Notes under the pieces: model-generated
Databases searched by the model: none
What the model saw: only the letters and a program-made list of their open reading frames with translations
What the model was told of the DNA's origin: nothing
NCBI GenBank assembly: GCA_025024175.1
Contig: QCXZ01000001.1
Location: 10,602,001-10,666,000 of the forward strand
Length of the DNA: 64,000 nucleotides
Direction of reading: 5' to 3'
From: Rhyzopertha dominica
Lineage: Eukaryota; Arthropoda; Insecta; Coleoptera; Bostrichidae
Program-made: the position numbers and the translations under genes
Part shown: positions 22,301-64,000 of the stretch, piece after piece
Numbering within the stretch: position 1 is the stretch's first letter
How the letters are laid out: every line of letters starts with the position of its first letter

Positions 22301-25300
22301 CACCGTTGTTTTAAATATCCAGCAAGTTTTATACTTTCTAAAGCGTGTTTTGCTTCTCTCTTACATAATGAATTACATTTAATTTGAAACACCATAGCCA
22401 ATTCACTGCTACAATTTTTGCAAAAAATCTTCGTTTCCTACTTACAAATCCCTTTATTTAAATACTAGCTATGCCAGAAAGATTAAATTTTTAAGTTTTC
22501 CAGAAAATTCAGTCTAAAGTAATTTTTTTCCTTATATAGTTTTTTATTTAGTATAATAACTACTAAAATAACTTGAAAAACAGAAAATTTCTTTATTATT
22601 CCATAACAATATGCCTTTTATTGCTTACATAATGAATACTAGTGCCACACATCTATTTTGCTTTCAGATTAATTCAACTCATAATAAACGGCGGTAGAAA
22701 AATTACCCTGTTTCAAACATTTTCTTAAATCCGCCAAAAACTACGCAAAAGGTTCCTAATTTCCGTCATGTGCACTGTTACAGCTCCCTAGGTAACTAGG
22801 TGCTCACTGTTGTCAGTTTTATAAATGGCCAGAGAAATACAAATAATGCAATGGGAAAGAGAGGGGCGAAGGTATAAGTATAACCGTCAACGTCAATATT
22901 ACAATGTAAACATAGGAATAACCTGTAACTGTTCATCAGCAGTAGTATTCTTACAACACGGAACAAAACACTTCTTAACATAAGCCATTCTAACATTAAA
23001 AAAACAACAGATTATCCGAATACTTCGACAACATCTTGCTCCACCACTTAATCTGACAAATACGAAACTCGAAAGTTTGACCAAACTATGTAAACAAAAA
23101 CGCATGGTTAGAGTAGTTAGGGTTATTCGTTACACATGTGACACATGCAGCACATGCGAACGTGTGATGTTGTCAGCGGTACTTTACAGTTTTCTTCCTA
23201 ACGACGGCCAGAGATCGTCCTGACAGTTTCAAAATTTATCATATCGTTGTCATACGAAAGTATACAAACTAAACATTATCAAGCTTCAAGCATCGTTTAA
23301 TTCCTCATAATAAAGACATTAGTTCTAAAGCAGGTTCGATGGTTAAAGTGCTTTCGTATTTTAGCAAAAGGCCAGTGAATGCGCTTATTATATTGAACTG
23401 TTCATTATAGAATAAACTGACTGAAGGACGAATTAAGTTATTTTCACAAATACGCCTGAAGTTGACCTAGGTATCAATGTCACATTGCCAGTTTACGAGT
23501 ACATTCCTCACGGTATCGCGAAAATTTGCCCACATTGGCAACGCGACGCAGCTCAAAAAAAATGTAAACAAATATTACTTGCAATGCCGCTAGAGCACTG
23601 GCTATTATTGGTGTTTCTCGCTGGAAATAATCGCAAAAAAATGTCTTTGTGCTTCCATTTTTATGTACATTTTAAATGTAAAATGTGGGACGACCCCATT
23701 GACAATGTAAAAACGTTGCATTTTTGTATTACACCATCATATTAACAAAAAACAATGTGACCTTTTGTTTTTTTCACTGCACTTTATTTCTGACCCAGTA
23801 AATTCGGAGTAAATTTTATTAAGGAAAAAAAATGGTAAATAGGAAACTGTGTGAACATCTTTAGCATTAGGGTACAATCATTGTCTAAAATATCGTGTTA
23901 AAAAGCATGGCAATAATGGCTTCAAATTTTCACGTACGAAAACTTTCCTAAATTACAATTCTTCTTACCTGTCACTGACGGATACAGTAAAATCCTTCGG
24001 TGACGAAGAAAACAGCTCAAAGTTGGCCAGCTCGATCTTCTTCGCTTGAACGGCCTCGCACAGTTCCACTATGAACCATATCCGACTGGTACAAGTGTTC
24101 AACTTGTACTCGTCCCGCGATGGACTAAGAACAGCACTGGGACTCACAGCTTCAGGATTTGCCGCCACGATCTTGGCCCCACAATCCGGAGAGGCGTAAT
24201 TCTTCGATCTCAACTTGCCAACAGAAATCCTGCTTCCGTTCACGCTCTGTCCGTTAACGGTGGAATTCGACTGTTCCTTCTTCTTCTCGGCCTCTTCCAG
24301 TTGTTTCTGGGTCCATTCCGAGAAGGAGGGTATCTCCTCTCTAGTGAGGTTTTCTTTGGATTCGCTGCTGCTAGCTATAACTACGTCGTCAGTCTTTATC
24401 TCTGTGTTGTCAGATCTGTTGTCGTCTTCTGTCTTTTCTGGCAGGGGAACTTCGGGTTTTTGGGTTTGGTTCAATTTTTGACTGGCTGAAACGTTTTGAC
24501 TAGTTAATGTGTTTGGGATGTTTGCCATTTTTTGGAGTTCTGCGGTGGCCGTATCTTGCAAGGTGTAGATGACGGATTGACCACCATTGGTAAATCTGGA
24601 ATAGCAGTAATTTATTTTATTTTCCAACGAACAAAGTCCATTAAAGGAAAANATTCAAAATAGAAANGCAATGGAGTTACAAAATTCACTATGAAAATAA
24701 AACTTCTTGGCAATTCCTAGTAAAAGCATTAATACTATTATGGAAATTGTCAATTTTATTATTGAAATTATTATAGATTCTATAAATGTAAAAAAGGTGA
24801 ATTGTAAAGCAGTACAATGCGAGCAAATTCATTATAAAACGTAAGTGTATTTCTAGAACCGTGATAGGTAACATAAAATGATATATAATGAGAAAAGTCA
24901 TTACAAGTAATTTGACCATTAATTATCTTATACAGAAATACCAGTGAGGCATAAGTTCTTCTGCTATCTAGAGACTTAAGATTAAATTCATAACATAACA
25001 TATATCAAATCCAAAACAAGGTTCAATAACATAGATTATAAAAATTACAAACAGCAAGGAACCCAAATTAGGTCCTTGACAAACACCACTATTGCAATCA
25101 AAGAGAAAGGATTTGCAATTTTTGTACTGAACATATTCCATGCTCCTTTAGCTTAATAAGCAACAGGTTGTGGTCGACTATGTTGTGTTTTGCTTAAATC
25201 TGTATAAATTACATCAACATGTTGATCGGCCCTTTATAAAATTATGCTGTTTGTGATTAATAATATGAGTTACATGAGTAGAAATATATTTACATAAAAT

Positions 25301-45966: not shown

Positions 45967-48900
45967 TTATTTACACTTACGAATTTTAAGAAAATATAAC
46001 AATAATTTGAACCTCTTATGGGAGTTTCTTATCATATAATATTGACCACTTTTGACAAGAACTGAAGTTCCTGGATTCATTGGCAAAGGACTCAGGTTGT
46101 CCACTTGTAGTTGACCACTTCCTTTTTGCACTAGGAACAATATATCATGGTTTCTTAATCTCTGACCGGCTTTGAACCCATTTACTTTAATTTCAAATAA
46201 TCCCTCGGTAAGACCTTTTTCATCACATATTCCATAACTTAATCGGAGATTATCATCACCCTTTACACACATCAGTTTTTTCGGACCATGTGAGTACTGT
46301 ACCACATCTGCAGTTGAACCATGATGTGGTTGTATACCAAAAGGTCTGTCGGTGGAGTCCCTGATGCTGCAACTGCAAAGAACCAGTATGATTATGATAA
46401 AATTTAAATTGTTACATTTCGTATCATGTATTATATGTAAAGAAAATTCACCCGGTCAATGTGTGTCGCTATCTTTCTTATAGTTATACATACTAAGTTA
46501 TGCAGTTGTACCTTAGAAAGTAATTTAAAAAACCTAGGTGTAAAATATACCACTAGAAAGGTAATTTTTTTCCTATAAAATGAATGGACCAAAATTCAAT
46601 GTTCAACAAAAAATTTAAAAAAATAAAAAAGTTTGATGAAATTATTTTAAGTTTTACTAAGTATTTATTTTGATCAAACAAAAGATAACATTATTCTGTT
46701 GCAGTTGTGGAAAACAAAAACATGATATAGAAAACAAATAGGTCACACTGTAGACAGTGTGACCTATTTGTTTTTAAGTCACCCTGAAAAAAAGTTTAAT
46801 AATTGTGTGATTTGGCTCAAGTTTTTTTTTAATCGTAGGGCTTGATAAACTGCATATTTTCAACAAAAATGACCTTGCTCATACAAAATCCAAGTTTCTA
46901 AGAGCAAAATTTGAATAAAGCGTATTAGCGATTTTTTTAGAAAAAACATATGCATGCCACTGGATTCGACATCCCCCAAAATGGGCCTGTAACAAGTGTT
47001 ACTAGAAAATATCAAGTAATAACGAATTTGTGGAAAAAAAGAAAGGGACATAGGTACAGGCACCAGAATTTACGACATCGAATTTTGAACACCCTTAGCA
47101 TTTCACTCATGATGTCACAAATATGCAGTACAGCAAAACCTGCTTCAAAATATTTGTACAGTTTGATGATATCGCTAGCATCAAATAAAATACAGACTCT
47201 GTTTTCAACAAGCAAGAATAGATTTTATAGATTATACTTTGACGTTTCTAAAGTTTTAATTACATCACATCACCTCTTAGCCAATCAACACACTATTATA
47301 CTAGCAATATGCACAAGAGCTTATTATTACTATAATAATTTGTAGTACTTTGATTTTATTGACTGACAATGCATTTTTCTTAAACTTGACGTCATCATTT
47401 GTGAAAATGAATAAGAATAGATTTAGCACATTGTCAATTGATGAAATTAATGGTAAAATTAAGGAAATTGCATATAAAAAGTAAAAAAATGATCTATTGA
47501 ATACCGTGCGAGAGTGAGAATAAATAAAAAAAAAAATTTCTGAACTTTTGCCGACAATTCTCGAAGTTCTGTTGAACTATTTTCAATTTATTGTCAGTCT
47601 CCTGTTCTATTATGACTGAGAATATTACTCACTTTGAGACACCTGCCACACTGTACTCCCCTTGATCTTGTTCAGCATCAGCCTGCAAATCTTGATCAAC
47701 ACTACTCATATTTGTCTCCGTACTTTCAATAATTGGTTCTATACCGAATCCAGGTGGAGGAGTAATTCTGTAAATTTTTACACTAAGCAATAAAATAAAA
47801 CAAAATGTTATAAAGCATGCACAGATCCAAACAAAAAACTGTTGCAAATTGAATCAATACTTCCACAACCAGTTGTCAAAATGACATTTACGCTTTTATT
47901 TCTCATACTATACGATCAGTAATCAGGTTTTGAGCATTTTTTCTCTCTACACAGACAAACGGTTTTCGTGATATTAGCAAAAATACATAAATTTTTAAAA
48001 TTGTTTTTTTCCAAATAACTCGAAAATTATTACTTAACAAAAATTTTGGAAAAATTTTTTAAAACACTTTTTGTGAGAAATTATATTTCCTATCTGTAAT
48101 ATTTTCATTTTTAAAATATGTTNAGTATTTTTGGAGATATTTAGGAAAAACCTTTTTTTTAAGTGACGCTATTTTGCTAATATCTTCTAAACAGTTTACT
48201 GCACCAACGAATCATACTTCCAATTATACTACTAATCAAATACTAAAACGGAAAAAAAGTAAAAAATTATGTCTCTCGAAAGTTATCGCATTCACACACA
48301 AAACCACACACAGACAAGATTTTTTTTTTTATGTATTCAACCATTTTAAAACGATTGAGCAAATAAAAATGTTAGAAAATTTTTTTCGCGATACAGTACT
48401 TTCCATCTGTTGGATGTGGAAGTAACGAAGTAAAGTTATGATTATAGTTTATCTAAATTTCTTTCCCTTCAATATACATACATGTAATTCTGGGTGCTGC
48501 TTCTTAGAGTTTTGCTTCCACTGGCATTTTGGCTTATCTGATGAGAACGGTCCTGTACATTCGAAATACTAATATTACTATGACTACGTGTCATCATTCT
48601 GGTGTTGTCTCTGTTAGATGTGCTAAAAATTCACATAGTGTAAGTTTTCCTAAATAGAGATCCAAATAGCAACATGATAATAAATGTAAAGTACATAATA
48701 GTGAGTCAGTAAGCGGAACCTGTCTATAACGAAAGCATAGTTGAACTTCAATAAAAATATTTTCAAAGATAATAGATTTCTGGTTATACCATAAGTGTAC
48801 AGGGTGTCCCATTTTCGTTGTAATTGTAGGTTATCTTGGTAACTATTAATGCTAGAGTGTTGCGGTTTCAACATTACTGTGTTACTTTTTTGTTGTGAGT

Positions 48901-51900
48901 TGAGATGTACCGTCGCCATTTTTGTATGGTCTTGTTTTAAAGCCATACGCAACTTTTTAAAAATGTAACATTTCTTCAGTTCTCAATATCTCGATTGGCT
49001 ATGAAGACACAAAAAAACTGTAGACATTTTTTATAGATATTTTTATTCTAAATCTAGCGGCGTAATCAGAATTTTTTTAGAGCGTTACATTTTTGAGATA
49101 TAACACAAACTTATATTTTTTTTTTAAACAAAAACCATAGTTGGCTTTGCTGTGGTTGAAAAGAAATATTTTTTCTGATTAAGAAAATGTATGCATTGTT
49201 AGGTTTTTCTTTACTAATTTTGGTATTATTCCAATTTTTGTAATAATTTAATGAGATTTTATGTTTTTCGTCAAAATGGATGTAAATACTTCATAAACAA
49301 GACATAGGTACTTATGTCCAAATAAACAATCAATTTCATTAGTTATGTGGCCTCCTAGATTATCGATAAAAAAATGCATAAGTGCTGTTAGGAGTCTTAT
49401 GTATGTATTCAAATATGCATATATTATTTTTAAAGGATTAAAAGGAATAGAAGCCTAAATGCACTACACAACTTTTTTGAGATAAGAACATTACTCGAAA
49501 AACAAATGAAAAGATATACACTGCAATAGTACGTCCAGCAGTGACATCTGCATGTAAAACATGGATACTAAGAGAGGAGGATCAGAATAGGTTAGCTATA
49601 AGGGAAAGAAAGATGCTATCAAAATATATGGAGGTGTAAAAGAAAACGAACAATACAGAAGAAGGACCAACCAAGAATTATATGAATTGTTTGCTAGTCC
49701 TACTATTATTCAATATGTGAGGGCACAACGAACAAGGTGGCTGGGTCATGTGTACAGAATGGGTCCTGGAAGAAAAAACAATAACAAGGAAACAATGTGG
49801 AAGGCCAAAGAGAAAATAGATAGACTGTGTAGTGGAAGATGTTGAAAGACTGGGAATTGCGAACTGGAATACACAGGCCGGAGACAGATCGTAGGACAAG
49901 CCATGGGCCTGCAAGGCCCAAAGAGCTGATTTATATTTATATATATATTGAATAAACTTATTTGCGGTCGTCTAATGTCACTATTGGGGGAATTCGACCT
50001 GGTGGTAAAAAATCAAAGAAAACTCTTTATTCTTGCCAAGCTTTCGACTGCTTTATTGCAGTCTTCGTCAGGGCTTTCTACAAACAACAATCCAATAATT
50101 ACATTAAGATTACAAAAATGGAACAATATGTTACTTACAAAATTGAGGTTTAACTAGGCAGTTCTATTATACAGGAAAGGAATCTTTGGAAATTTAAATT
50201 TAATAAGTATATGCTAAATGTATTTCGCATATATCACAATGGTAAATTTTTAATACAATACTATGACTAGAGAAAAATATTTAAGGTGACATATACGTCG
50301 TAATCAAATTCAAAAACCACTTATATTTTGCTTTTGAATTTTGATTCATACGATTTTAAAAGAGAATGCCAATAACTACTTGAATTTAAGTTTTATTACT
50401 TCTGTAAAATTTCTGTCGATATATAATAATGAATAGTAGTTTTTTGGAAGTTGTCAAACAATACTAGCAAAACACTTGTTTATGATCCTACTTGAAACCG
50501 GTCCGTATGATGTAATAAGCAAACATCCATTTAAAAAAAAATATAAAAGAGGTTAATGATACTTTGGGCAGTTGCAGTCTATTAATAAATAGTAATCTTA
50601 AATACAAGTTAAAGTTAAAAAATTTGTTGATATCAAAAAGCTATGCTCTCCCAAAAATTCATAAACCGGGAAATAAATATTGCCTTTTTCCTTTTTCCAA
50701 ATTACCAATTAGCAAAGTGGTTGGTTAATAAATGACAGTTTGATCAAAAATTCTCTAAATTTAATAAATAAATTAAAAAATTTCAAAACTAAATGAAATC
50801 ACAGACTAATATTATTCAATAGCGTACCAATACCTCAAGCTTTAGAATATTCGAAAAATTTAACAAAACTGTGCATCATGCAAGACACATTATATTTCAT
50901 CAAAAATTGTATAAACAAAAATTTGAAATGGCAATGGGAAACCCTCTCACACTTTTCTTAGCTAATCTTTTCTTAAGCCACCGGGAAAATCCACAAAACA
51001 CAAATGAATTTCCGATATCGTGGTATAGATATGTAGACGATGATTTTGCCATAATAGATAATAACTTTGATATAAATAATTTACACAAAAATTAAATTAA
51101 TTATGTCAGTCAATAAATTTCACTTTTTAACTAGAAAAGGATTCCCAATTGCCATTGCTAGATTTAATAATATATTGAGAGGACTTTAATTTTAATATTT
51201 ACAGAAAACCAACACAGAGATAATTATATTAAAAACAGTTCTTATACACCTTTTAAGTACAAAATGACTGTCTTTAATAGTTTAATATATACATTACTAA
51301 ATGTTCCATTATCCACAGAAAATTACAGAAATGAACTCTTACATTTGTAATTTAGCCAACTTAAATGGATATAAAAAAGAAATGATCACTAAGTTATTAA
51401 ACAAACAAAAATATAAATTAAGTTTTCAATCTCATACGCATCTTAGTCCTGAAAACCAAAACATATTCCATAGAAAATTTACATACCATCGATTAATAGA
51501 ACATGAATTTCAAAATTTATTTTCTAGACTTAATATCTTGCTTTTGGTAACAATTGCATATTAAGAAACTTGTTAGGCAATCCCCTATATAAAGAAGATA
51601 TGTTAAACAAATCTGGAATTTATGAAATTAAACGCTGTAACTGATTAAAAAAGTACATTGGCCAAACAAAACATGATGTAAATATCAAATTCAAAGACAA
51701 TATGTACAATTCGACTCCAACAATGAAAAGCTTGGTTATTAAATGACAACATTTTGTTGCCCTTCGATATATTTGCACCTTTTAATGTCAGTACTTTGCA
51801 TAAATCTAAGGCTCCCTGGTTGACAGACAACATTCGCTTTCTGATGAATTTGAGAGATTCTGCTTACAATAGATACCAACGGCGTAAAAGTGAAGCCCGC

Positions 51901-54900
51901 CAGGTATTTTATAAATCATTGCTTAATTACATGATTATGGCAGTCCGAAGGGAAACGAGGGCACATTTGGAGCATGTGGTTCTGTGGGATAGTGTTGCTT
52001 GCATGTGGAAAAGTTTACGAAATTTATAAGAAAAGATAAGATCCTCACTTTTCACTCATCTTTCTGATCCCGGTACCCTTAACGATTTCTTCTATCAGTC
52101 GGCGACCAGTCAGGCTTTTGATTTGGAACTTAGACATTATTATTCATCTCACTCGCTAGTGGAGAATGTAATAATGCTTCGATATATAAGATAACTAAAT
52201 CAGTGGGTTTAGATGGTATTAGCACTAACATATTGCAATTTTGTTTACCAGTAATTGTTCCTTATATTACTAATATTATAAATTTTGCATTGTCAATGGT
52301 GTTTTTCCTCGTCAACCTAAGCCATCTTGTATCCATCCATCTAAGAAGAGCAATCCAACGTAAAGAAAAAACTTAGACCAATTAAATAGTATTTTGCCTG
52401 CCATGGCCAAACTTGAATTTCTTTCTGGTCCAGTATACATACATATTAAAAGATATTAGATTTACATACCTCAAATTCTCATTGCTGCATCCAACTGCAT
52501 TCAACTTTGAATTGACATTTCGGCTGCTCTGGTGTGAATGGTCTTGTAAGTTTGAGATGTTTGTATTATTACTATAGCGTGTCATTCTTCTACCTCTTTT
52601 AGATGTGCTGAAAAATGCCACAGTGTGAGAGAGATCAAAACAGCAACATTATAGTAAACATAGTCTACGAGCCCAGGCTCATAATAGTTCGGCCGGCTGG
52701 CATTTGCAGTTACATGTTTTAAAAAGTTCTGATACCAACACGAACTGTGACAAATTGTTGCAAAACTATTTATACTACATTAAAACACAGATCTTGATCT
52801 TACAAAAGCAAACAATTTTATTTCATTTACGTGAACTGCTATAATTACCGAACCAAAAATGTAATTCAACNAACGGGTCATAATAGTTCGGCCATGTCAA
52901 CACGAGGCGGCCTGCCAAAACAAAACATATACGGAATAGTTAGGCAAAAGAAAAACCCCTTTTGACCCAATTACAGAAGAAGAACTAAAATGGGCACGGG
53001 AACGCAAAAACTGGACAATGGAATAGTATCATTTGGAGTGATGAGTCGAAATTCGAGGTATATGTGGGTGACACACGAAAAAGAGTTATACGCACTTCTT
53101 CAGAAGCATATCGCAATGACTGTTTGGTAAAAAAAGTTAAGTTGCCAGGGTCTGTGACGGTTTGGGGTTGTATGNCTGCTAGGGGTGTAGGTAGTCTGCG
53201 TATTATTGATGGCACTGTTAACATGCAGAAATACAGAGACATTATTGTAGAAAATCTTTTACCGTCCATCCCAAATTGTCAAACGGCCGAAGGCGAATTT
53301 ATGTCCCAGCAAGATGGAGCGCCGTGTCATACGGCAAAAATAATTCAAACATAAAATATCAGTATTAAAATGGACCTCTTCCAGTCCGGATTTATCTCCA
53401 ATTGAGACCCTGTGGCATAATATGAAGGAACAGAAATGCAAATCCATTTAAAAATTTGTTGTACCTTCTAAGAAACTCCAAGCATGAAAAAAAAAAACAT
53501 TAAAAGTTAAAGTGTTTCAGTGTCCATATCATAATATCCACGAAGATCGTGACAACTTAAATCGTGAAAACTTTTTGTCCTTTCATGTATACAAATTTGG
53601 ACTAAAAAATGTTTTCGAACTTTTTTTTTACATCAAAAAAGGTTACCTTATTGACAAGCTAGGAGCAGTCGTTTACAAAAGAAAAACATTAAAAGTTAAC
53701 GAGGGTGAATGCTTTCAGTGTTCTTAATATCAGAAAAAACCGCTGTCAGTATCAAACACTGATCAAAAATAATTAATTTGATATTTCGATCATACCTGTA
53801 ATCTTTGTCAAAGAAGAAACCTTCAAAAATTGTCTGACACAAGTTCAAACAAAAGAAATAGTTCATCCTAACAATGTCAATAAGATGGACATTCTTTTTT
53901 GCCTAAACTGAGTACAATAAAGGACAAAACACTTTTTAGATCTTAATTTGACCCAAAAACCCAACAACTTTTTTTTACGATTTTGCTTTCCAAACCCATC
54001 TAACAAATNAAAGAAAAAATGTAATTAAATTTTAAAATTNTACACCCTGCATTTCCGTTAATATCAACCTTGGTACTANAATCAGTTAAATCAGCTTATT
54101 CATTACATTCATTTGTTATGAATGCTGAAAATCATTACCTTACCTTCGACACAATACAAAATAAGTTTTATTTTAATATTACAAAATTGCCACCAGATTA
54201 TTAATAGAAGGGTATAACTTTATAAAAAAAAACAAAGCAGTTCACCACACAGCCTAATAAATAACGTTTGCATCATTATATTTTTCAATGTCACTTAAAG
54301 CAGTTCTGCTCGTTATAGAACAGCCAACGTGTTAGTCAAGTCTGTACTATAAAGACATTTTATACATACCGGTTCAGTTAAAAGTACAAGGAGTCCCGTT
54401 TTCATTGTAATTTGAGGGTATCTCGGTAACTATTAATGTTAGAGGGTTGAGTCCATTCCTGTATTACTTTTTTGTTGTGTGTTGAGCCATTTTCATATGG
54501 CCTTTGGTATTCAAACTATAGCCAACTTTTGAATAATGTAACATTTCTTCAGCTCTCAATATCTTACTTAGGTATGTATAACAGGGAGTTACATTTTTGA
54601 GATATAACAGAAAGTTGCATTTTTTTAATGGAAACCATAGTTGGTTTTGATATGGTTGAAAAAAACCTATTTTTTTCTGATAAAAAGATGTATATGTTAT
54701 TAGGTTTATTTTCACTAATTTTGGAATGATCAATTTTTTTTTAGTAATTTAATCAGATTTTACTTTTACATCCGGAGGCTATGGTACAAGAAAACACAAT
54801 ATAATTTATGTTATTAAGTAAAAATTTTAATCTATTAAAAATAATATATGATTATTTGAATACATACATAAGACTTCTAAAAGCGCTCACACAGTTTTTT

Positions 54901-57900
54901 TATCGGTAATCTAGTAGGCCATGTAACTAATGAAAATTATTTTTTATTTGGAGATGATTACCTATGCATTGATTAGCATCAATTATTTACAACCGTTCTG
55001 ACGAAAAACGTAAAATCTCATTAAATTATTATGGTAATTGGAATAATACCAAGATTAGTAAAAATTAATTTAACAATATTATATAGACATCAGNGCATGA
55101 TTTTGGGAGAGGAGATGTCTTATTGGGCCGATGTTTCTGTAGGTGTTCCACAAAGATACATAGTCGATCCGTTTGTCATTTATTCCTGAAGAATTTGAGG
55201 TAGCTTACAGTACAGCCAGTACCATCAGTTTGCAGATGATAGTATGCAAAAGAATTTTCTTTTTCATCTTAATATTTTGACAATTAAATTTTCTTTAAAA
55301 AAAAGTTTAGCTTTTCCAGACTTAAGCGACACGTCCTGTACTGTGCATACTTTACATACTTATAACTACTACAGCACTTGAATTTCTTTCTGGTCCAGTA
55401 TACATACATATTAAAGGATGTTAGATTTACATACCTCAAATTCTCATTGTTACATTCATCTTTACTTGAACTGACATCTCGGCTGCTCTGTATGTTTGAG
55501 ATGTCTGTATTATTACTATAGCTTGTCACTCTGCTACTTCTTTTCGATGTGCTGAAAATTGCAACAGTATTAGAGAGAGTAAAATAGCAATATGATAATA
55601 AATGTAATCTGAATATCATATTTAATGTATACAGGATGATTAGTAATGAAAGGAAAATCCATGATCCGGTGATCAAGTGCATAAAAAATATGCCAATTTA
55701 ACTAAACTTACCGTAAGTATTAAAGCTGACCTTGAGGGAAATACAGAGTGTTAAAGTTAAGAATACAGATTACATTTTCTTTAATATGTTTAGGTCACTT
55801 TAACATAATTCCACAAAATTTGGTATACAGAGGTGTTTTAGGCTGAGAAATGCAAATTCATTTAAATATTTGTTGTACCTTCTAAGAAACTCCAAGCATG
55901 AAATAAGAAAAACATTAAAAGTTAAAGAGGGTGACTTCTTTCAGTGTTTATAATATAAGATAAAGTGTTTCCGGAAAAAACCCTGTCAGTATCAAACGCT
56001 GACCCAAAATAATTAATTTAACATTTTGATCATACCTGTAATCTTTGTCAAAGAAGAAAACCTCTAAAATTGTCTGATACAAGTTCAAACAATTTTAACA
56101 GGTTCGTTGAAATGAGAAAATCCAATAATTTTTTGACTGAAAATTAAGTTAATTCAATTAAAATGTAAATAGGTGTGCAATAACTATACTAAATTATTGA
56201 TATAGAAAAATGTATTTTACTTTTAAATAGTTCATACTAGCAATGTCAATAAGGTAGGCATTTTTATGCAGTAAAAAACACAGCTGAAACTTCTTTTTTG
56301 CCTAAACCGAGTACAAGAAAGGACAAAATAGTTTTCAGATTTTAATTTGACCCAAAAATACAAACAACTTTTTTGATTTTCCATTCCACAGTCCATCTAC
56401 CAAATTAAAGAAAATGTACTTAAATTCTTAATTTGGACACCCTGCAATTCCGTTGATATCAACCTCCTTACTAAAATTATTTAAATCAGCTTATTCATCA
56501 CATTCATTCGTTATGAATGCTGAAAATCATTACCTTACCTTCGACACAATACAAAATAAGTTTTATTTTAATATTACAAAATTGTCTCCAGGTTATTAGG
56601 AGAAGGGTAAGCTTTATAAAAAAAACAAAGCAGATCACCACATGGCCTAATAAACAACATTTGCATTATTATATTTTTTCAATGTCACTTAAAGCAGTTC
56701 TGCCGACGTGTTAGTCAAGTCTGTGTTTTTAAATAAACAACAAATAATATATCAAAGCAGATTCTGCAGGTGTCAATAATCGATTTTATTGATTTGATAA
56801 TAATAATTCTAATGCTCCTACTATCTTATTCACTTGAATAAAACTTTACATCAAATTAAATGTTCAAACTAAAGACCTCCTAGAGCTTGGCAATGACAGT
56901 CGATCAGAAATTGAGCAAAGGACAAGATATTGCTAGCAACGTCACTTGACCCGGCTAGAGTGGGGAGTGTGGTGAGATCACATTTTGCTACGGTAAACCT
57001 ACCGTGATTTCGCGTTTGACTCGTAGAAGAGACATCTGCTCATTGTTGCCAACTTAGCGGATAAAATTCTCGCCTAGCGGGAAAATATAGGTTTTAGCGG
57101 TTAGCGTATATTTTAACAGAATAAGAAAGTTTTTAGTTATTATTAACTGTTGCAATTTAGCGTATGAATATTGGAAAATAGATATGAAGTATCTAAAATC
57201 GATTTATTTATGCTAGGTGACTCGATGGTTACTGTATTCCTTGCCTGGGAAATATTATACATCCTGCTTATTTTACCTACCAATCCAAAATTTAACCAAT
57301 GTCTTGCTAGTTCTTGTGTGTTTCACATTGTAGCTCAGACCGTCAGATGAGGCAGATATTATCTTAAACCATAAAAAGCCACGAGACATATTTCTGGAAG
57401 GAACACGATCAGCTTGACAATGAAATTTTTAACGTTTTAGCATAATATGTAGGAAACTAACAATTATTTATGTAAAATAAATGACAAATCCCGTTTTATA
57501 TAAACAGATTACCTTGTCTTAAAAATTTTAGCGGATTCGATGCGGCAATGTATCAGCCTCAGTGGCAACACTGTAGACAGATGATATGTTTGTTTACATT
57601 TGCATTTGGCTTGGTTTTGCGAGGAAGATTTATATTTTATATTTTTGCCTGCATTTTTTTAACACAAGTGACTTGTTGTTAGTGCTACACCTACTGCATC
57701 ATACCTCAATTTTTGTCTCAATATTTCTTCGGGTACAATTAAAAATTTCTTCCTGGAACAACAATACTAGTATTTGCGCATGCTGGTACAAAACATTTCT
57801 TTTCAGTAGCCATTTCGTCCGCGTTTTGAACGATATAATCGTGATCGATAAACAAAAGCAAAAAACAAGGATTACTAAGAGATTGTGAATGACGCTCTTC

Positions 57901-60900
57901 GTCGACAGTTGACAGCGAAAAACACGCATAGGCAACTCTGGAACGCTGAAAATTATTCTGCTCTGGCAACAACACACAGCTGCTGCCAATCACAAGCGGC
58001 AGGGTCAACCTACGTCACACATTCAAATATTTAAACTTCACAATTTTTTTTATGTTTATCTAAGTGATTTGGAAAAAATGAAAAAACTGGGGTCTATTAT
58101 TTTTTATGTAGATTCATATTCTGCAATAAAAAAAATATGGTCTATAACCCCATTATAAAAAAACCTTGTTAAGGACATTTTGCTATTAAGTCCACATTTA
58201 CAGAAGTAAACCTATATTCTATACTTTTGAGTAACCCTATATATTAATAAGCAGTTGAAGAAAATTTAACAGAACCAAAGATACAAAATTCAGTGCTTGA
58301 TTTTTTTAATTATTTAATAGTTTGAAGCACCACAAAAATAGTTTTTTTTTACTTACTGGGCAGTATCAGGCTGTAAACTGAGATTGCCTCCATGCTGAAT
58401 ACTTTTTTTGTATTTAGTAGTACGACGCTTCCTTACTGTATTTGTATCCTTTAAAATTTTCAAAGAACTACCATAAATAATTTCAGTTATTAGGAGTGGA
58501 TTATCACGAATAACATGGTTTCGTGTGGAACGCCGAATTGGTACTTCAGCGTCAGCTTCTTTAGCCTTTTTCTCTCGCAATTTCCTCCTTTTTGGAGGAC
58601 TTGTTTCCTCTGCGCTGATATCTTCATTACGAGTATTTCTTTTTCGTGAAGTGGAACCAGTTTCTTGTGTTATTCTGGAACTAAAAATAGAGTAATGTAA
58701 TATTTGACTTTTCTTTTTAAAGATGTAAGTACCTACCCAATGAAATTAAAATGTGACAATGTTACACAGTAAATGTTCAACGAGATGGATAATGAAAACA
58801 CAAGGTAAAATTGCATTCTTTCATGAAAATTTATAGATAATATCATATTCAAAATATTCTGTTCTAAAATGTTTTTGGCAGTAATTTTTAGGCATGACTT
58901 CCAACATAGCTGTACGATGGCCACCAATGAGGTGGTTAGTAAAAATCCCAGTGAAAAAAAACAGAAGAAGAATTAACAAAGTACTGTAGAAAACCAACAG
59001 GAATCAATGTGTATGTGAAGTGCTTGAGGTTCTTCCATAATTCTGTTCTAAAAGAATTATAAGCATAATTATTTGATAAAAAAAAAAACTGGTACATAAT
59101 TAGCCTAAGGCTAATTATTCTTAAATTTAACCTATAAGGTAGCACAAAACTGAAATATAAAACCAAATAAATAATAATAATATAAAGACAAGCTTACGAA
59201 TTAAAACTTTTTAACAAAACAGAACTCTAAAAAATAATCAGATTATGCAGGAAACTATTGTTGATTTATATTTGACCAGCCAATCTCTTTTAATTCACTT
59301 TTGACATGACGAAATTTGCTAAGGTTATTAATTAGGAGACAACATGAATTCTGCTTCTAGGAGCATGGTCCATACAAGAATTATATAACACTACCATATG
59401 AAAACACAGCTAACGTCAAACACTCACAAAGACTTACTTTAAGTTTTTTGTTCAGTACATCTTTATTTAATATTATTGGCATCCCCAGATCACCAGGGTG
59501 GTCTTACAAAAATAATCATATTAAGTCAACAACATGAGCAAAGAGAATATATGGGCCAAATAATACACTTAACAGGCCCTATAAAATCAAAAGTAAACAT
59601 AAGACACGTGACTGGAAAGGTGTGATATATGAGAAAGCAAAAAATCCTGATCCCTAGCTATTATCGAGTCTTCTTTTCTTGGAGTTTTTTGGAGAATGAT
59701 GTAAGAATTTCACAGAAAATCAGCAAGATAAATTTTGGATAGTAGGTGATTTTAACCGATATATTAAAAAAATATATACAGGGTGATCAGTTAAGGTTGG
59801 ACAGCGGCTGTATCTTGGAAATTAATCGTGCTAGAATCTTGCGGTATTTTTTTGTTAAACAAATGTGGCCACCCAGATTTCATTTAAAATATTATGAAGT
59901 ACGTAACTTTGCCCGTAGATGGTGCATTTAATATGACATATCAAAAAATAGTTTCTTTCTCCAAAAAGGAGGGATAGAAGTTTCAAATCTTCAAAATGTC
60001 ATAACTCAAGTATAGTTTAACAGAATTTAACAAATGATGGCTAGTTTTAAAGTGAATTTTATGGCTCTCAATATAATCATAAATAACTTATAACTTATTC
60101 CAAATGTTTGACAATGGGAGGCGTTATTTATAAAATTTTTATATTTACTAAAACATCTTTAAAATATCAAATGCAACCCTATAGAGTTTTTTGTTAGTTC
60201 GGAGGTCGATATCTTTTTTCGTTTCTTGATTATAGTAAAAATGTCTACCGTTGCTGGCAAATCACAGATATAAACCTAACCTAATAAGTCGTAATTTATA
60301 AGTAAGTCTGACTTTCTTTTTAATATAACCTAATTTTCTTTCAAGAAAAAAAAATAGCCGCACCAAAAACAGGTTTGCAGTTTTTTTACTATAACAAATA
60401 AATATCGACCTCTGATTTTCAAATTTATTTTGCTTGATTAGTGAACTATAACAACTAACAAAAAAGCCTATAGAATTTCATTTTATCTTTTTAAGATATT
60501 TGACGAAATATAAAATTAGTATAACTAACGTCTCCCATTGTCAAACAGTTGCAATTAATTATAAGTCATTTATGATTATACTGAAAACCGTAAAACTAGC
60601 CCGCATTCGTTAAATTCAGTTAAACCATACTTGAGTTATGCCGTTTTGAAGATTTAAACCTTTTATCCTTCCTGTTGTTATAGCAGCTAAAAACAAAATT
60701 TATTACGAAATAAATATTGATTATAATGAAGTCTATTTTAGACCAACACTGTATCGCAACTTTATGAAGAAATAAACGATTCTTTGATATGTTATACTGA
60801 ATGCGCCACCTAGCTTACTTTATATTATAAAAGAAATCTGGGTGGCCACATTTGTTTAAAAAAACTTTACCGCGAGATTCTAGCACGACTGATTTCCAGC

Positions 60901-61986
60901 TGCTGTCCTGTTTTAACTGATCACCCTGTATATGATGGGGATATTTGTGACAAAGAGTTGAGGAGTTTACGAATGCGGGTATTGATAGCAGAACCACAAT
61001 TGATCTATTAATTACGAATCACTATGACACATTTGTAAACATTGAGGGTATTTTGGATTTTTCTACTCGTAGAATGATTAAATTAAAAATAGCTTTTATG
61101 AACAAGAAGATGGTATACATACAGGAAGAAAAAAAAAGATTATAATTATGCCAAGAGACTGCTACAGGAAATTAATTATGACTACCAATCATTAGATGTG
61201 GCGACAAAAACAAAAAAGCTCATATATAGAGGATCTAAGAAGAGTGGCAAATATTGGTAACCTATAAGAACAACACCCAGTAATAAATCTAAGTCCTGGT
61301 TTAATATTGACGTAAAAAAAGCAATACAGAAAGATTATTATCCCTTCACTGTATATTTACTTTTGTATCATGCATGTGAAGAAAAATTTATATTTATGTC
61401 TATCAATTTGAATGGTATTAATATGTTACGAGGTCCGGGAGCTTATTGGGCACTAAATACTTGCGACTACAAAAGAGCAGATGTCATGTAACTCCTATAC
61501 AGTCAATTTTTTTCCNTAACTNTCCTAGAGACCTACTNAAATTAGAAATGAATACATTGAAGAAAAACAGAGAATTCGCTACCATAGTNAGTTTCCTTGG
61601 ANTAAAGTGTACCTAGTGATTTCTTATATTTAATCTTAGTTAAATTTGCATTCTTACTAAAGTTCATCAGGATTTTTCTCTCTATTTTATTGTTGTGGGT
61701 GTTTGCAAGTCATACATTTTGACAATAATCAAATAATCTAAATTAAATATAGAAATAATATACCCCATGATTTGAATTCATGGACATTGCCATAACTAAA
61801 TGATGCTCATAATTTATGATACTCGTGAAAACAGATTAATAAAAACAAAAAAGTAAAGAATTACATAAATACTGTATTACATACCTTGATTCTCCAAAAT
61901 CAGAATTTACCATTGAAATTTCATCGCACCCTGTTTGTCTAGCTCCTCCTTTGGAAATCCTTGGCACTTGTTTGTTCTTGTTTTGA
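45967..61986 (-). CDS. CENP-C-like centromere protein, C-terminal exons (gene continues beyond right edge)
   Basis: CENP-C links centromeric nucleosomes to the kinetochore. Exons in coding order: 61885-61986, 58357-58674, 55435-55551, 52470-52607, 48482-48622, 47633-47767, 45967-46372. Every junction carries the same split (two bases before, one after), so all join in frame to about 451 codons. The last exon matches the Mif2/CENP-C cupin fold: GLFEIKVNGFKAGQ, DILFLVQKGSGQLQV, GTSVLVKSGQYYMIRNSH. Exon 58357-58674 is very basic (KRRKLREKKAKEA) and has IRRSTRNHVIRDNPLL then TEIIYG, a degenerate CENP-C motif without the usual Trp. Three internal exons are tandem duplicates. The upstream part, presumably with the start codon, is outside the window. 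Identification rests on cupin plus RRSxR context; another cupin-tailed nuclear protein is possible. Confidence 0.72.
46731..46774. repeat. Perfect 20-bp hairpin in the CENP-C-like intron
   Basis: AAAACAAATAGGTCACACTG (46731-46750) is followed by a four-base loop TAGA and its exact reverse complement (46755-46774). It lies in the intron upstream of the cupin exon. No mismatch in the stem. Confidence 0.9.
46775..47632. other. Intron between the cupin exon and its upstream neighbour
   Basis: AT-rich with no recognised gene. The overlapping open frames at 46860-47345 on both strands carry no motif. Confidence 0.4.
47633..47767 (-). CDS. CENP-C-like penultimate exon
   Basis: Encodes ITPPPGFGIEPIIESTET and an acidic tail (DQDLQADAEQDQGEY) ending VSK across the splice. 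Acceptor TTTACAG, donor AAA/GTGAGT. Part of the gene at 45967-61986. Length 135 with one base in and two bases out, so it can be joined to any of the upstream repeated exons or to the RRSTR exon without a frameshift. Confidence 0.7.
47830..48424. mobile_element. Non-coding TIR element X, copy 1 (shortened)
   Basis: The ends are TACTTCCACA (47866) and TGTGGAAGTA (48415). The interior is the reverse complement of the copy at 62331-63181 over most of its length (e.g. GACATTTACG, ATCAGGTTTTGA, TCACAAAAAGTG words) with an internal deletion. Around 35 bases outside the left TIR (CCAAACAAAAA, then TGCAAATTGAATCA) are also shared. No coding capacity. Confidence 0.68.
48482..48622 (-). repeat. Duplicated CENP-C-like exon, copy 3 (most diverged)
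   Basis: Encodes TSNRDNTRMMTRSHSNISIS then NVQDRSHQISQNASGS; acceptor TTTTTAG/C, donor AT/GTATGT. It aligns with the copies at 52470 and 55435 in TSxR, TRxxSN, IS N-Q and SxQ/RN positions. 46 full codons; same phase at both ends. Confidence 0.75.
48799..49440. repeat. Dispersed non-coding repeat B, copy 1
   Basis: Starts TACAGGGTGTCCCATTTTCG. Shares long blocks with 54385-54775, such as TCTCGGTAACTATTAATG-like, CATTACTGTGTTACTTTTTTG-like and TAACATTTCTTCAG. Its last 240 bases are present in inverted form at 54838-55090. Confidence 0.7.
49495..49925 (+). mobile_element. RTE-like LINE C-terminal fragment
   Basis: The plus strand reads IVRPAVTSACKTWILREED then RLAIRERKMLSKY, and after shifts YRRRTNQELYELFASPTIIQ, RTRWLGHVYRMGPG and RLGIANWNTQA. 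This is the standard C-terminal end of RTE-type endonuclease-RT proteins. Broken. Confidence 0.75.
49970..51745 (+). mobile_element. Penelope-like retroelement, decayed, with RT and GIY-YIG remnants
   Basis: The left end has CCAAGCTTTCGACTGCTTTA and TTGCAGTCTTCGTCAGGG, a Penelope-type terminal sequence. The body gives LPKIHKPGNKYC near 50650, then MAMGNPLTLFLANLFLS and WYRYVDDDFAII (the RT YVDD catalytic box) at 50925-51060, MNSYICNLANLNGYKK at 51330, and near 51640-51700 KKYIGQTKHDVNIKF, the YIG half of the GIY-YIG endonuclease. Several stops and shifts; inactive. It lies antisense in the CENP-C-like gene. Confidence 0.8.
51746..52405 (+). mobile_element. Jockey-type LINE fragment (linker to start of RT)
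   Basis: Reads KSKAPWLTDNIRFLMNLRDS, YNRYQRRKSEARQVFYKSLL, then SDPGTLNDFFYQ, and after shifts TKSVGLDGIS and LNSILPAM. This is the region between endonuclease and RT in jockey-like LINEs, ending just before RT box 1. It abuts the Penelope-like copy on one side and the duplicated exon unit on the other. Confidence 0.75.
52470..52607 (-). repeat. Duplicated CENP-C-like exon, copy 2
   Basis: Encodes TSKRGRRMTRYSNNTNISNL, then QDHSHQSSRNVNSKLNAV and a terminal SNENL; acceptor TTTTTCAG/C, donor TTGAG/GTATGT. The following 60 bases of intron (to 52408, CCAGTATACATACATATT) also match copy 1, so the duplicated unit includes flanking DNA. Confidence 0.85.
52640..53436 (+). mobile_element. Tc1-type transposon remnant
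   Basis: The transposase is readable from about 52975: RERKNWTMEW, then SDESKFEVYVGDTRKRVIRT (first catalytic Asp), GSVTVWGCM, MSQQDGAPCHTAK (second Asp), and after a stop and a frameshift SPDLSPIETLWHNMK (the Glu). A 16-base word TCATAATAGTTCGGCC is repeated directly at about 52679 and 52879, as in inverted-repeat/direct-repeat termini of some Tc1 elements. The N-terminal DNA-binding half is deleted. No matching right TIR seen. Confidence 0.82.
53436..54355. repeat. Repeat R, copy 1 (next to duplicated exon copy 2)
   Basis: Matches 55850-56727 almost throughout: TTGTTGTACCTTCTAAGAAA, CTCCAAGCATGAAA, CCTGTAATCTTTGTCAAAGA, GAATGCTGAAAATCATTACC, TTACCTTCGACACAATACAA. A stretch of about 180 bases at 53510-53690 is extra, flanked by AAAAACATTAAAAGTTAA on both sides. 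Confidence 0.85.
54385..55090. repeat. Repeat B, copy 2, arranged as a foldback
   Basis: 54385-54770 is a direct copy of the start of 48799-49440, while 54838-55090 is the reverse complement of its last part (e.g. AATACATACATAAGACTTCT, ACGAAAAACGTAAAATCTCA). The two halves therefore face each other. An N occurs at 55094. Confidence 0.65.
55435..55551 (-). repeat. Duplicated CENP-C-like exon, copy 1 (shortest)
   Basis: Encodes TSKRSSRVTSYSNNTDISNI, then QSSRDVSSSKDECNNENL; acceptor TTTTCAG/C, donor TTGAG/GTATGT. Lacks the QDHSH block of copy 2. The intron beyond the donor is nearly identical to that of copy 2 down to about 55378. Confidence 0.85.
55850..56727. repeat. Repeat R, copy 2 (next to duplicated exon copy 1)
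   Basis: Partner of 53436-54355. Lies at the same relative position (5' side of the exon in coding sense), so exon and R were probably duplicated together. Confidence 0.85.
56728..57560. other. CENP-C-like intron, no gene recognised
   Basis: Includes a more GC-rich patch at 56880-57120 (CTAGCGGGAAAATATAGG, TTTTAGCGGTTAGCG) that differs from the surroundings and may be transposon-derived; no motif identified. Confidence 0.35.
57565..58020 (-). pseudogene. THAP-domain N-terminal remnant
   Basis: From the ATG at about 57811 the minus strand reads MATEKKCFVPACANTSIVV then PGRNF, the start of a THAP finger (Cys pair, then the basic segment). It breaks after about 24 residues. Similar to the fragment at 22988. 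Lies in an intron of the CENP-C-like gene in the same orientation. Confidence 0.5.
58357..58674 (-). CDS. CENP-C-like exon with basic region and RRSTR motif
   Basis: 106 codons: ITQETGSTSRKRNTRNED, TSPPKRRKLREKKAKEADAE, then VPIRRSTRNHVIRDNPLLIT and EIIYGSSLKI. The RRSxR...PL...Y order is that of the CENP-C motif, which binds the CENP-A nucleosome, but the Tyr-Trp pair is replaced. Ends DTA with CA left over. Part of the gene at 45967-61986. Confidence 0.7.
58675..59630. other. CENP-C-like intron, no gene recognised
   Basis: AT-rich intron. Frames at 58733-58927 and 58936-59166 (minus) are hydrophobic low-complexity with no motif. Confidence 0.4.
59640..61620 (+). mobile_element. LINE fragment (endonuclease/linker) interrupted by a palindromic element
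   Basis: Before the palindrome, 59733-59756 reads FWIVGDFN, the endonuclease GDFN motif. After it, 60955-61080 gives SRTTIDLLITNHYDTFVNIE, then YAKRLLQEINYDYQSLDVAT near 61140-61205 and KSWFNIDVKKAIQKD near 61290. These are endonuclease C-terminus and linker. The right end is ragged and contains several N. Confidence 0.6.
59775..60933. mobile_element. Long palindromic (foldback) element
   Basis: About 1.16 kb whose two halves are inverted copies. Outer ends ATACAGGGTGATCAGTTAA and TTAACTGATCACCCTGTAT; further in AACAAATGTGGCCACCCAGA against TCTGGGTGGCCACATTTGTT, CATAACTCAAGTAT against ATACTTGAGTTATG, ACAATGGGAG against CTCCCATTGT, and GAGGTCGATA against TATCGACCTC. Arms about 440-530 bases, with a unique centre of roughly 190. 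TATA flanks both sides. No transposase. Confidence 0.88.
61885..61986 (-). CDS. CENP-C-like exon (intact member of a second duplicated pair)
   Basis: 33 full codons: QNKNKQVPRISKGGARQTGC, then DEISMVNSDFGES. Acceptor TTCNAG (one ambiguous base), donor AG/GTATGT. One base in, two bases out. It is the most upstream intact exon I can identify; exons carrying the N-terminus lie beyond the window. Confidence 0.6.
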
Positions 61987-62217
61987 CTNGAANTTATAAG
62001 CCACATATACATAAATTCAATAATTAAGATAATTGTTATACTAAATTTTTTCTTCAGTTACAAGCTTTGCCTTTCTGAATGTGCAAANAGTTAGCTGTCC
62101 AGTAAACCATTATTACTAATATTATTATTTATTATACAAAAGAATATGAAGATATTTAAACTTTTCTACATGTTAAATTGTATAATGAAATTAAATTACA
62201 TAAATAATGTATTACAT

Positions 62218-62331
62218 ATCTTGAATATCCAAAATTAGAATTTTCCATTGAAATTTCATTATGCCCTGTTGTTTGAAGGTTATCCTTTATTTGTATAGCA
62301 CCTCGTTTAGAAGTTGTCGGCACTTGTTACT
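62218..62331 (-). pseudogene. Damaged duplicate of the 61885-61986 exon
   Basis: Reads QVPTTSKRGAIQIKDNLQTT then GHNEISMENSNFGYS, aligned to the intact exon. The donor is AG/ATATGT instead of AG/GTATGT. The 5' part of the exon is cut off by element X copy 2, whose end abuts CAAGTGCC. Its upstream intron continues beyond the insertion at 63185-63420 and matches 61990-62160. Likely not spliced. Confidence 0.65.
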
Positions 62332-63181
62332 TCCACATCCAACGGATGGAAAGTATTATATTGCGAAAAAAATTTTCAAAAATTTTGATTTGCTCATTTG
62401 CTTTAAAATGGCCGAAAACGCATAAAAACAAAATTTGAACAAAAAAAATTTCTTGTCTGTGGTATTGTTTGTGGACACAATAACTTTCGAAAGACTTAAT
62501 ATATGAACTTGAAATTTGGCAAACATATAAATCTCAACTACCCAAAGCGACCTATTGTTTGTGGGGTAAGTAGGGTATCGGGAAGGGGGCAAAATTGGGG
62601 GGTAACTACCCTTTTTGCAAATTTTTATTTTTTTATATTTTTTCGTTTTAGTATGTGATTAGTAGTATAACTGCGAGTATTATTAGCTCTTATAAATTTT
62701 CGGTACAGCAAACTGTTTAGAAGATATTAACAAAAAAGAGTCACTTAAAGAAAACGGTTTTTCTTAAATATCTCCGAATATATTTAATATATTCAAAAAA
62801 TGAAAATGCCATCAGATAGGAAATAAAATTTCTCACAAAAAGTGTCTTAGAAGATTTATCCAAAATTTTGACATTTTCGAAATATTTCCAAAAAACCTAT
62901 TTTGAACCTTGCTCGTACGATATTTTTTAAATTTTGGTATTATATAGAAAATCATATTTTTGATCAGAAAGCGCTCTTGTAATTTTTTGTTAAAAAATAA
63001 TTTTCGAGTTATTTGGAAAAAACTGATTTTAAAAATGTATATATTTTTGCTAATATCACGACTGTTTGTCTTAGAAAAAATGTGTAGAGAGAAAAAATGA
63101 TCAAAACCTGATTATTAATCGTATAGTATAAAAAATAAAAACGTAAATGTCATTTTGACAATTGAATGTGGAAGTATTGAT
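62331..63181. mobile_element. Non-coding TIR element X, copy 2 (longer)
   Basis: Ends TACTTCCACAT (62328-62338) and ATGTGGAAGTA (63167-63177 region), an 11-base perfect TIR. About 850 bases, AT-rich, no long coding frame. It sits inside the duplicated exon unit. Confidence 0.68.
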
Positions 63182-64000
63182 TCAATTTGCAGCATTTTTT
63201 TTTGTTTGGACTAGAAATTATATGCAACATATACTTAAATTCAATAATTAAGGGACTGGTTACATTAATTTTTTACTTCAGTCACAAGCTTTGCCTTTCT
63301 CAATTTATAAAAAGTTAGCTGTCCAGTAAACCATTATTACTATTACCTATTATTATTATTATTATTATTTGTTATATAAGAGAATATAAAGATATTTAAA
63401 CTTTTCTGCATGCTAAATATAGTGAAATCAAACAAAAGTTTCTACAGATAAATAGTATGTATATACACATACGTGATTTTGAAAGTGTTGTCTTAAATTA
63501 AACTACAGCATGTCAACAACATATGAAAACAATATATCGGTAGTATAATTCATTTTCTTTAAAAAATAAAACCTCAAAATCCAGACCCCATTCGGCGTCA
63601 CTGACGGGCACTTGTCCCTTTATCGCATATAACTGAACAATAATCTAGTGCAATGACCTAACTCAACCTGATAGCACCTATAAATAGTGCCGCAAAAAAA
63701 TGTTTTTTTTTTTAAATGATATAAATCGCCAGCCGCCTGGATGTGTTTCATTATTCCATACATGTATGTACATTTTCATGTACAAATTTATTTTTTTGTA
63801 ACTTACAAACCATCGTGAAAATAAAAAACCCAATCTGCCATCTTTCTTAGTTATGAAGTATTATGGGTTTAAAAAGAGATATCACTTTCGCAATCACGCA
63901 GTATGTTTACTCTGATCAAAAACAATTTTATAGTCATACAAATAGGTTGGCCCTTATGTTTGCAATATTAGATTCTTTTATTTCCACCCCTAAAACCAAT
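63182..64000. other. CENP-C-like upstream intron or flank
   Basis: 63185-63420 duplicates 61985-62160 (e.g. AAGCTTTGCCTTTCT, AAAGTTAGCTGTCCAGTAAA, CCATTATTACT). The remainder to the window edge shows no exon that I can support. Confidence 0.5.

Follow-up and report, generated by a model that had tools for sequence, protein, structure and literature searches.

Three tandem copies of a small exon in a probable CENP-C-like gene of the beetle Rhyzopertha dominica

CENP-C is needed at every division and yet is fast-changing. A stretch of 64,000 nucleotides (nt) from the beetle Rhyzopertha dominica (assembly GCA_025024175.1, contig QCXZ01000001.1, positions 10,602,001 to 10,666,000 of the forward strand; hereafter the window) raises the question of why a gene that resembles CENP-C should carry three similar small exons in a row. 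An earlier inspection of the letters alone (the original prediction) had described these exons, here called modules, as tandem duplicates in a CENP-C-like gene. We consider that they are probably real exons of a gene that is itself most likely a divergent CENP-C, whose linker has been lengthened in frame by tandem exon duplication at a duplication-prone locus. The modules and the exons downstream and upstream of them are as follows.

58357..58674, minus strand: exon E58, 318 nt, bearing RRSTRNHVIRDNP, the CENP-C-like motif of the original prediction; open frame with splice borders.
55435..55551, minus strand: module exon E55, the younger duplicate, 117 nt with 38 full codons; AG/GT borders, one base in and two bases out, 80.9% identical to the E52 unit over 256 base pairs (bp).
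52470..52607, minus strand: module exon E52, 138 nt with 45 full codons; AG/GT borders, one base in and two bases out, protein score against E55 or E48 matched by 0 of 5000 shuffles.
48482..48622, minus strand: module exon E48, the oldest split, 141 nt with 46 full codons; 66.9% identical to E52 over 163 bp (expectation value E=2.2e-9), with an extended alignment.
47633..47767, minus strand: exon E47, 135 nt, linker between the modules and the cupin; open frame with splice borders.
45967..46372, minus strand: last exon, with the cupin domain and the stop codon; Pfam matches PF11699 and PF07883.

All three modules have a length divisible by three, are preceded by AG and followed by GT, and are open with one base in and two bases out, and the neighbouring exons E58 and E47 agree with them in each of these respects. 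The exon coordinates and the symmetry of the original prediction, neighbours included, are exact. Comparison of the region with itself by blastn places the E55/E52 match at 55376-55610 and 52411-52666 (E=2.7e-65), extending into the introns on both sides, and the E52/E48 match at 52513-52658 and 48522-48684, extending into the acceptor-side intron; the donor side of E48 also lines up with the other copies in a multiple alignment. The real protein score is reached by none of 5000 shuffles for E55/E52, by none of 5000 for E52/E48 and by 869 of 5000 for E55/E48, which places the split of E48 earliest and leaves E55 resembling E48 only via E52; the relation between these two runs through E52 and the flanking DNA. 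Homologous exons thus lie in tandem, with homologous flanking introns and with splice dinucleotides and frame kept, as is expected of tandem exon duplication, and judged from the sequence the three stretches are diverged tandem copies of one exon, with a homology beyond chance. The consensus proposed for them, TSKR..R.TRYSNNT.ISN.Q, captured three copies of one module, but is matched by E48 only loosely (TSNR, SHSNISISN).

The similarity of the younger pair is not confined to the exons, and two collinear units can be delimited.

55376..56724, minus strand: duplicated unit B, E55 with flanking intron; collinear matches to unit A, non-coding blocks 78-95% identical.
52411..54345, minus strand: duplicated unit A, E52 with flanking intron; collinear with unit B, apart from block 52900-53420, which is unmatched there.

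An additional collinear intronic match, 53432-54345 with 55846-56724, suggests that the duplication behind the pair E55/E52 spanned a larger segment. Alternatively, the intronic blocks may be repeats that were inserted twice, and parts of them match 72196-72318 and 77548-77675 in other introns. We propose that an ancestral small symmetric exon was duplicated first, and that a second duplication, of a segment from one copy together with the adjoining intron, would later have yielded E52 and E55. An open reading frame at 52985-53354, in the intron of unit A and without a match in unit B, resembles a transposase when read by eye, which Pfam did not support, its one match being sub-threshold and to an unrelated family.

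The donor sides of the modules differ in one respect, which concerns a short extension.

55408..55434 for E55 and 52443-52469 for E52, minus strand: 27-nt in-frame extension to a second GT; donor side 57/59 identical between the copies.

E48 has no counterpart of the donor that is assumed in E55 and E52; its own donor aligns with their second in-frame GT, 27 nt downstream. Between E55 and E52, the 59 bp past the assumed donor are identical at all but two positions, compared to 46 of the 59 bp before the acceptor (Fisher test, 0.0043). The donor side also differs from the exon itself (Fisher test, 0.022, using 18 differences at 114 codon-aligned sites), although free alignment of the exon leaves just 13 mismatches over 117 and would weaken this contrast. 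In E55 and E52 the downstream GT may serve as the true or as an alternative donor, while gene conversion or chance are other explanations for the high identity.

The modules belong to a predicted gene of 12 exons that runs from ATG to stop, encodes 1264 amino acids (aa) and has all 11 junctions in frame. The gene model reaches past the right end of the window, and coordinates above 64,000 carry on the window numbering. The 5' exons were predicted from open frames and splice dinucleotides, and further exons may be missing. Upstream of E58, the model comprises the following exons, all but the last of them beyond the window.

84735-85292, minus strand: E85, first coding exon, with the ATG.
84456-84620, minus strand: E84.
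80165-81402, minus strand: E81.
75179-75334, minus strand: E75.
71786-72106, minus strand: E72.
61885..61986, minus strand: E61, 102 nt, of the same phase; two N in the acceptor region.

From E61 through the stop at 45967 the model encodes 451 aa with no internal stop, and a single phase is common to nine successive introns, beginning with the one that follows E81 and ending with the last. Added copies preserve the frame because all predicted exons from E75 to E47 are symmetric and of this same phase. According to the proposed scheme, the extra copies would lengthen a Ser/Asn-rich, partly basic and presumably disordered linker between the exon with RRSTR (E58) and the cupin, with all three modules normally included together. 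How far exons of this kind stand out was assessed with a scan for cassette-like exons (YAG, a loose pyrimidine tract, GTRWGT, 99-160 nt, divisible by three, open) on both strands and in three frames of 102.4 kb, with settings picked after the exons had been seen and by design blind to E61, E75, E84 and longer exons. It returned 23 matches, eight of them in the one-in/two-out frame. Seven of these eight lie on the coding strand of the gene, at five sites (E52, E55 with each of its donors, E48 with two different acceptors, an extended form of E47 and part of the cupin exon), and the sole in-frame match elsewhere is at 24721-24840 on the plus strand.

Judged from alignments, the coding sequence of the gene contains four duplications, of which the module triplication is one; intron pieces have been copied as well, and one exon copy is dead. 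A copy of the tail of the first coding exon forms an exon of its own (84456-85292): E84 matches the end of E85 at 71.6% over 155 bp, with the score reached by 0 of 1000 shuffles. The 1.2-kb exon E81 holds about six repeat units of 44 aa (cut by eye) with a higher-order period of 127 aa, and two blocks within it are 89% alike over 313 bp; Tandem Repeats Finder reported nothing for E81, though blastn and protein alignment reveal the repeats. The dead copy belongs to E61.

62194..63432, minus strand: E62, a second, decayed copy of the E61 unit; insertion at about 62322-63210, donor GT lost.

E62 matches the E61 unit at 87.0% over 77 bp and at 79.3% over 241 bp, the duplicated stretch being 61859-62270 plus 63195-63432. 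E75 was rejected as a duplicate of E72, with 343 of 1000 shuffles reaching the score. Copies of one repeat, 77-85% alike, were seen at 47826-48431 (beside E48), at 62322-63210 (inside the decayed exon copy) and at 82559-82777. The introns bear local duplications also, and of the direct repeats less than 6 kb apart, 20 of 21 rows in the 102.4 kb fall in this gene, several rows describing one array and some probably being transposon copies. Such repeats occur in four of four 10-kb pieces of the gene, in six of the 20 controls cut from the same contig and in one of four from the rest of the window (Fisher test, about 0.016). The locus looks duplication-prone from these counts, in introns as much as in exons, and the module duplications would be part of a locus-wide habit that includes the E81 array, the duplicated tail of the first exon, the dead copy of E61 and the duplicated intron pieces.

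None of the other exons could be established as a source or relative of the modules. Derivation from E58 was rejected: the E48/E58 score is reached by 181 of 5000 and 20 of 1000 shuffles, which is unsupported allowing for several tests, and those of E52/E58 and E55/E58 by 1786 and 4100 of 5000. Kinship with the 44-aa repeats of E81 was likewise rejected (99, 322 and 474 of 1000 shuffles for E52, E48 and E55; a probability of 0.4 out of 100 in a profile comparison). A weak similarity to E47 (53 of 5000 and 9 of 1000 shuffles for E52, 186 of 5000 and 35 of 1000 for E55) looks like a common Ser/Asn/Asp composition, although a remote shared origin is possible.

Any exon duplication passes through a survival filter that favours symmetric phase. 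This bears on the proposal, made in the original prediction, that transcripts include zero to three modules as alternatively spliced cassettes, thereby tuning linker length or phosphorylation. The lengths divisible by three, the phase shared with the neighbours and the second in-frame GT on the conserved donor side of E55 and E52 speak for such cassettes, but the symmetry is expected of any surviving duplicate and, with nine introns of one phase, was to be expected here anyway. RNA pairing, as between the docking and selector sequences of mutually exclusive exons, was also compared between six module flanks and four introns (24 combinations), each against eight shuffled queries; the coarser step used for the shuffles gives the real sequence an advantage. 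The strongest duplex exceeded every one of the shuffles in four combinations (the donor flanks of E52 and E48 with intron E48-E47, and the donor and upstream flanks of E48 with intron E52-E48), where about 2.7 of 24 are expected by chance; in the other 20 it was no stronger than the best shuffle, and no pairing partner common to all three copies was found in the 24. Inclusion of zero to three modules is unsupported by these results, and we consider it unlikely. The alternatives discussed here and below are not mutually exclusive.

A further possibility is duplication without function, with the copies drifting neutrally at a locus prone to tandem duplication and the open modules being survivors on their way to a decay like that of E62. 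It is favoured by the duplication of introns along with exons, which weakens the case for selection of the exon copies alone, by the decay of E62 and by the substitution ratios given below. These ratios also weigh against the constitutive in-frame lengthening of a CENP-C linker that we prefer, as do the observations on gene identity that follow and the base pairs covered by repeats (615-1493 in the gene pieces), which three controls (3019, 2361 and 1182) match or exceed for most of these pieces. The ratio of nonsynonymous to synonymous substitution (dN/dS, Nei-Gojobori) is 1.51 for E55/E52 (bootstrap 0.48-6.71), 0.56 for E52/E48 (0.19-1.48) and 0.51 for E55/E48 (0.17-1.53), and all three intervals include 1, leaving constraint and neutrality indistinguishable. 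The alignment proposed in the original prediction supports homology; the dN/dS proposed with it does not separate these two. Against drift, all three modules keep their frame, splice dinucleotides and a length divisible by three, and the two gaps between E55 and E52 in the exon (15 and 6 nt) are both multiples of three, compared to two of nine gaps in four duplicated blocks that are almost wholly non-coding. The rough neutral probability of keeping frame, splice bases and such gaps is about 0.05 for E52/E55 and 0.005-0.008 for E48, calculated with inputs hand-picked within the results of the dN/dS and gap analyses and disregarding ascertainment, the exons having been noticed because they are open. 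With this bias, the estimate gives moderate support to past constraint on the modules. We regard neutral drift as possible though doubtful; under the preferred reading the copies would persist through weak constraint or through the rapid evolution that is usual for CENP-C.

The identity of the gene has to be judged from several partial signals. The best Pfam match of the last exon is PF11699 (CENP-C_C), with 21 bits and E=4.1e-4 over positions 8-78 of 85, which is below the family cut-off of 29 bits, and PF07883 (Cupin_2) follows close behind (19.1 bits, E=0.0011, cut-off 27.2). A search of the genome with PF11699 (479 Mb, 138 contigs) gave no match, the present locus included. The CENP-C motif starts with RRSxR and ends with P-x-x-aromatic-W. 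RRSTR is present at residue 894 of the predicted protein, but the P..[YFW]W end is absent from its 1264 aa, the single tryptophan being residue 480, so that of the CENP-C-like motif in the original prediction the start stands and no tryptophan follows it. Two protein database searches with the 451-aa C-terminal part returned nothing, although a protein of 1264 aa would exceed the length range of these searches. The database does contain beetles: among the best 120 of 234 matches, DUSP12 of the window has its best named ones in Atheta (67%), Ignelater, Onthophagus and Tribolium (65% each) and Photinus (64%), besides a further protein at 99%, in keeping with a beetle origin of the genome. The cupin exon had no match in the PDB, and its single-sequence structure prediction was too poor to use (mean predicted local distance difference test score, pLDDT, 39.3). 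An NCBIfam search gave no match, the 937 aa upstream of the modules matched no Pfam family at E up to 1, and two PDB matches of E58 (E 1.1 and 1.5) were disregarded.

The sub-cut-off score with Cupin_2 close behind, the missing motif end and the empty genome search would all suit some other protein in which a long N-terminal part precedes a C-terminal cupin. Nevertheless, CENP-C_C remains the best Pfam match of the last exon, a cupin in the last exon of a long predicted protein fits the layout of CENP-C (long, poorly conserved, with a C-terminal cupin), and the order of a motif-like RRSTR and then a cupin agrees with that given for CenpC in an insect survey (PMC4359364). We therefore consider a protein other than CENP-C quite improbable, and the architecture argues that the gene is very probably CENP-C. 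The placing of the modules in a CENP-C-like gene stands in that a cupin does lie downstream of them, although the name rests on the sub-cut-off match (21 against 29 bits), and because the full CENP-C motif, a defining feature, is lacking, the gene is called CENP-C-like and a probable, not a confirmed, member.

The closest published parallel is found in grasses, where exons 9-12 of CENP-C have been duplicated and lost repeatedly, rice having a tandem triplication (Talbert et al. 2004, PMC549713), and where positive selection was reported in the duplicated region of wheat and barley (PMC549713). Both systems show tandem duplication of small exons in a poorly conserved part of the gene, in grasses together with the rice triplication, a further internal duplication, losses and proteins of varying length. 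However, grasses duplicate exon pairs that encode acidic and basic peptides, whereas the beetle duplicates a single exon between the RRSTR exon and the cupin, and the positive selection in wheat and barley contrasts with beetle dN/dS intervals that span 1; the likeness drawn here is one of organisation. In maize, DNA and RNA binding has been placed in the exon-duplication region of CENPC (Du et al. 2010, PMC2816676). This duplicated region, with its binding reported in maize, may serve as a functional model for the beetle modules. By analogy, the beetle array might be adaptive: centromere drive, which has been invoked for grasses, could have favoured one duplication after another of a CENP-C segment that binds DNA or RNA. 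This grass precedent (PMC549713; PMC2816676), the charge of the modules (K+R to D+E of 7:2 in E52, 6:2 in E48 and 5:5 in E55) and the several separate duplications within one gene point that way, but dN/dS yields no claimable signal of positive selection and the modules lack homology to the E81 repeats; we find an adaptive array distinctly unlikely. Very improbable, in our estimate, is a bolder version, in which the canonical motif eroded to RRSTR and the adjoining array of basic, R-x-T-R-like modules took over contact with chromatin, DNA or RNA, its copy number turning over under centromere drive. If true, it would be an insect counterpart, independently evolved, of the grass exon 9-12 array.

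Among insects, Drinnenberg et al. (2014, PMC4359364) surveyed CenpC genes and could not recognize one in Tribolium, while citing another study that had reported it, so that beetle copies may be divergent. The same survey calls the CENP-C motif universal, yet recognized none in Tribolium and describes it as decayed in dragonflies. CenpC-type cupins are reported there for some insects, and the present gene has a candidate one; exon duplication is absent from the passages of the survey considered here. Tandem homologous exon arrays in an insect gene recall the mutually exclusive exons of Dscam (PMC1397879, PMC6071210), but the beetle array shows no sign of mutual exclusion, and joint inclusion keeps the frame because all copies are of the same phase with lengths divisible by three. 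The original prediction knew of no description of such an array, which holds for insects among the titles and abstracts listed for open-licence PMC papers; for CENP-C in general, the grass duplications had been published (PMC549713).

Our best reading is that the module array would represent an independent insect case of CENP-C exon duplication, most likely a constitutive lengthening of the Ser/Asn-rich linker, with alternative splicing and adaptive tuning of the modules as less likely possibilities. The earlier observation was correct and reaches further than first noted. If exon duplication recurs independently in grasses and beetles, it would be a general route by which CENP-C changes length and perhaps binding capacity, and ideas on centromere drive would become testable through module number against satellite turnover. 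The analysis also supplies a gene model for a beetle gene that the earlier survey did not recognise in Tribolium (PMC4359364). Finally, the intron preceding the cupin exon holds a near-perfect palindrome of 44 bp (46731-46774), 95% self-complementary.

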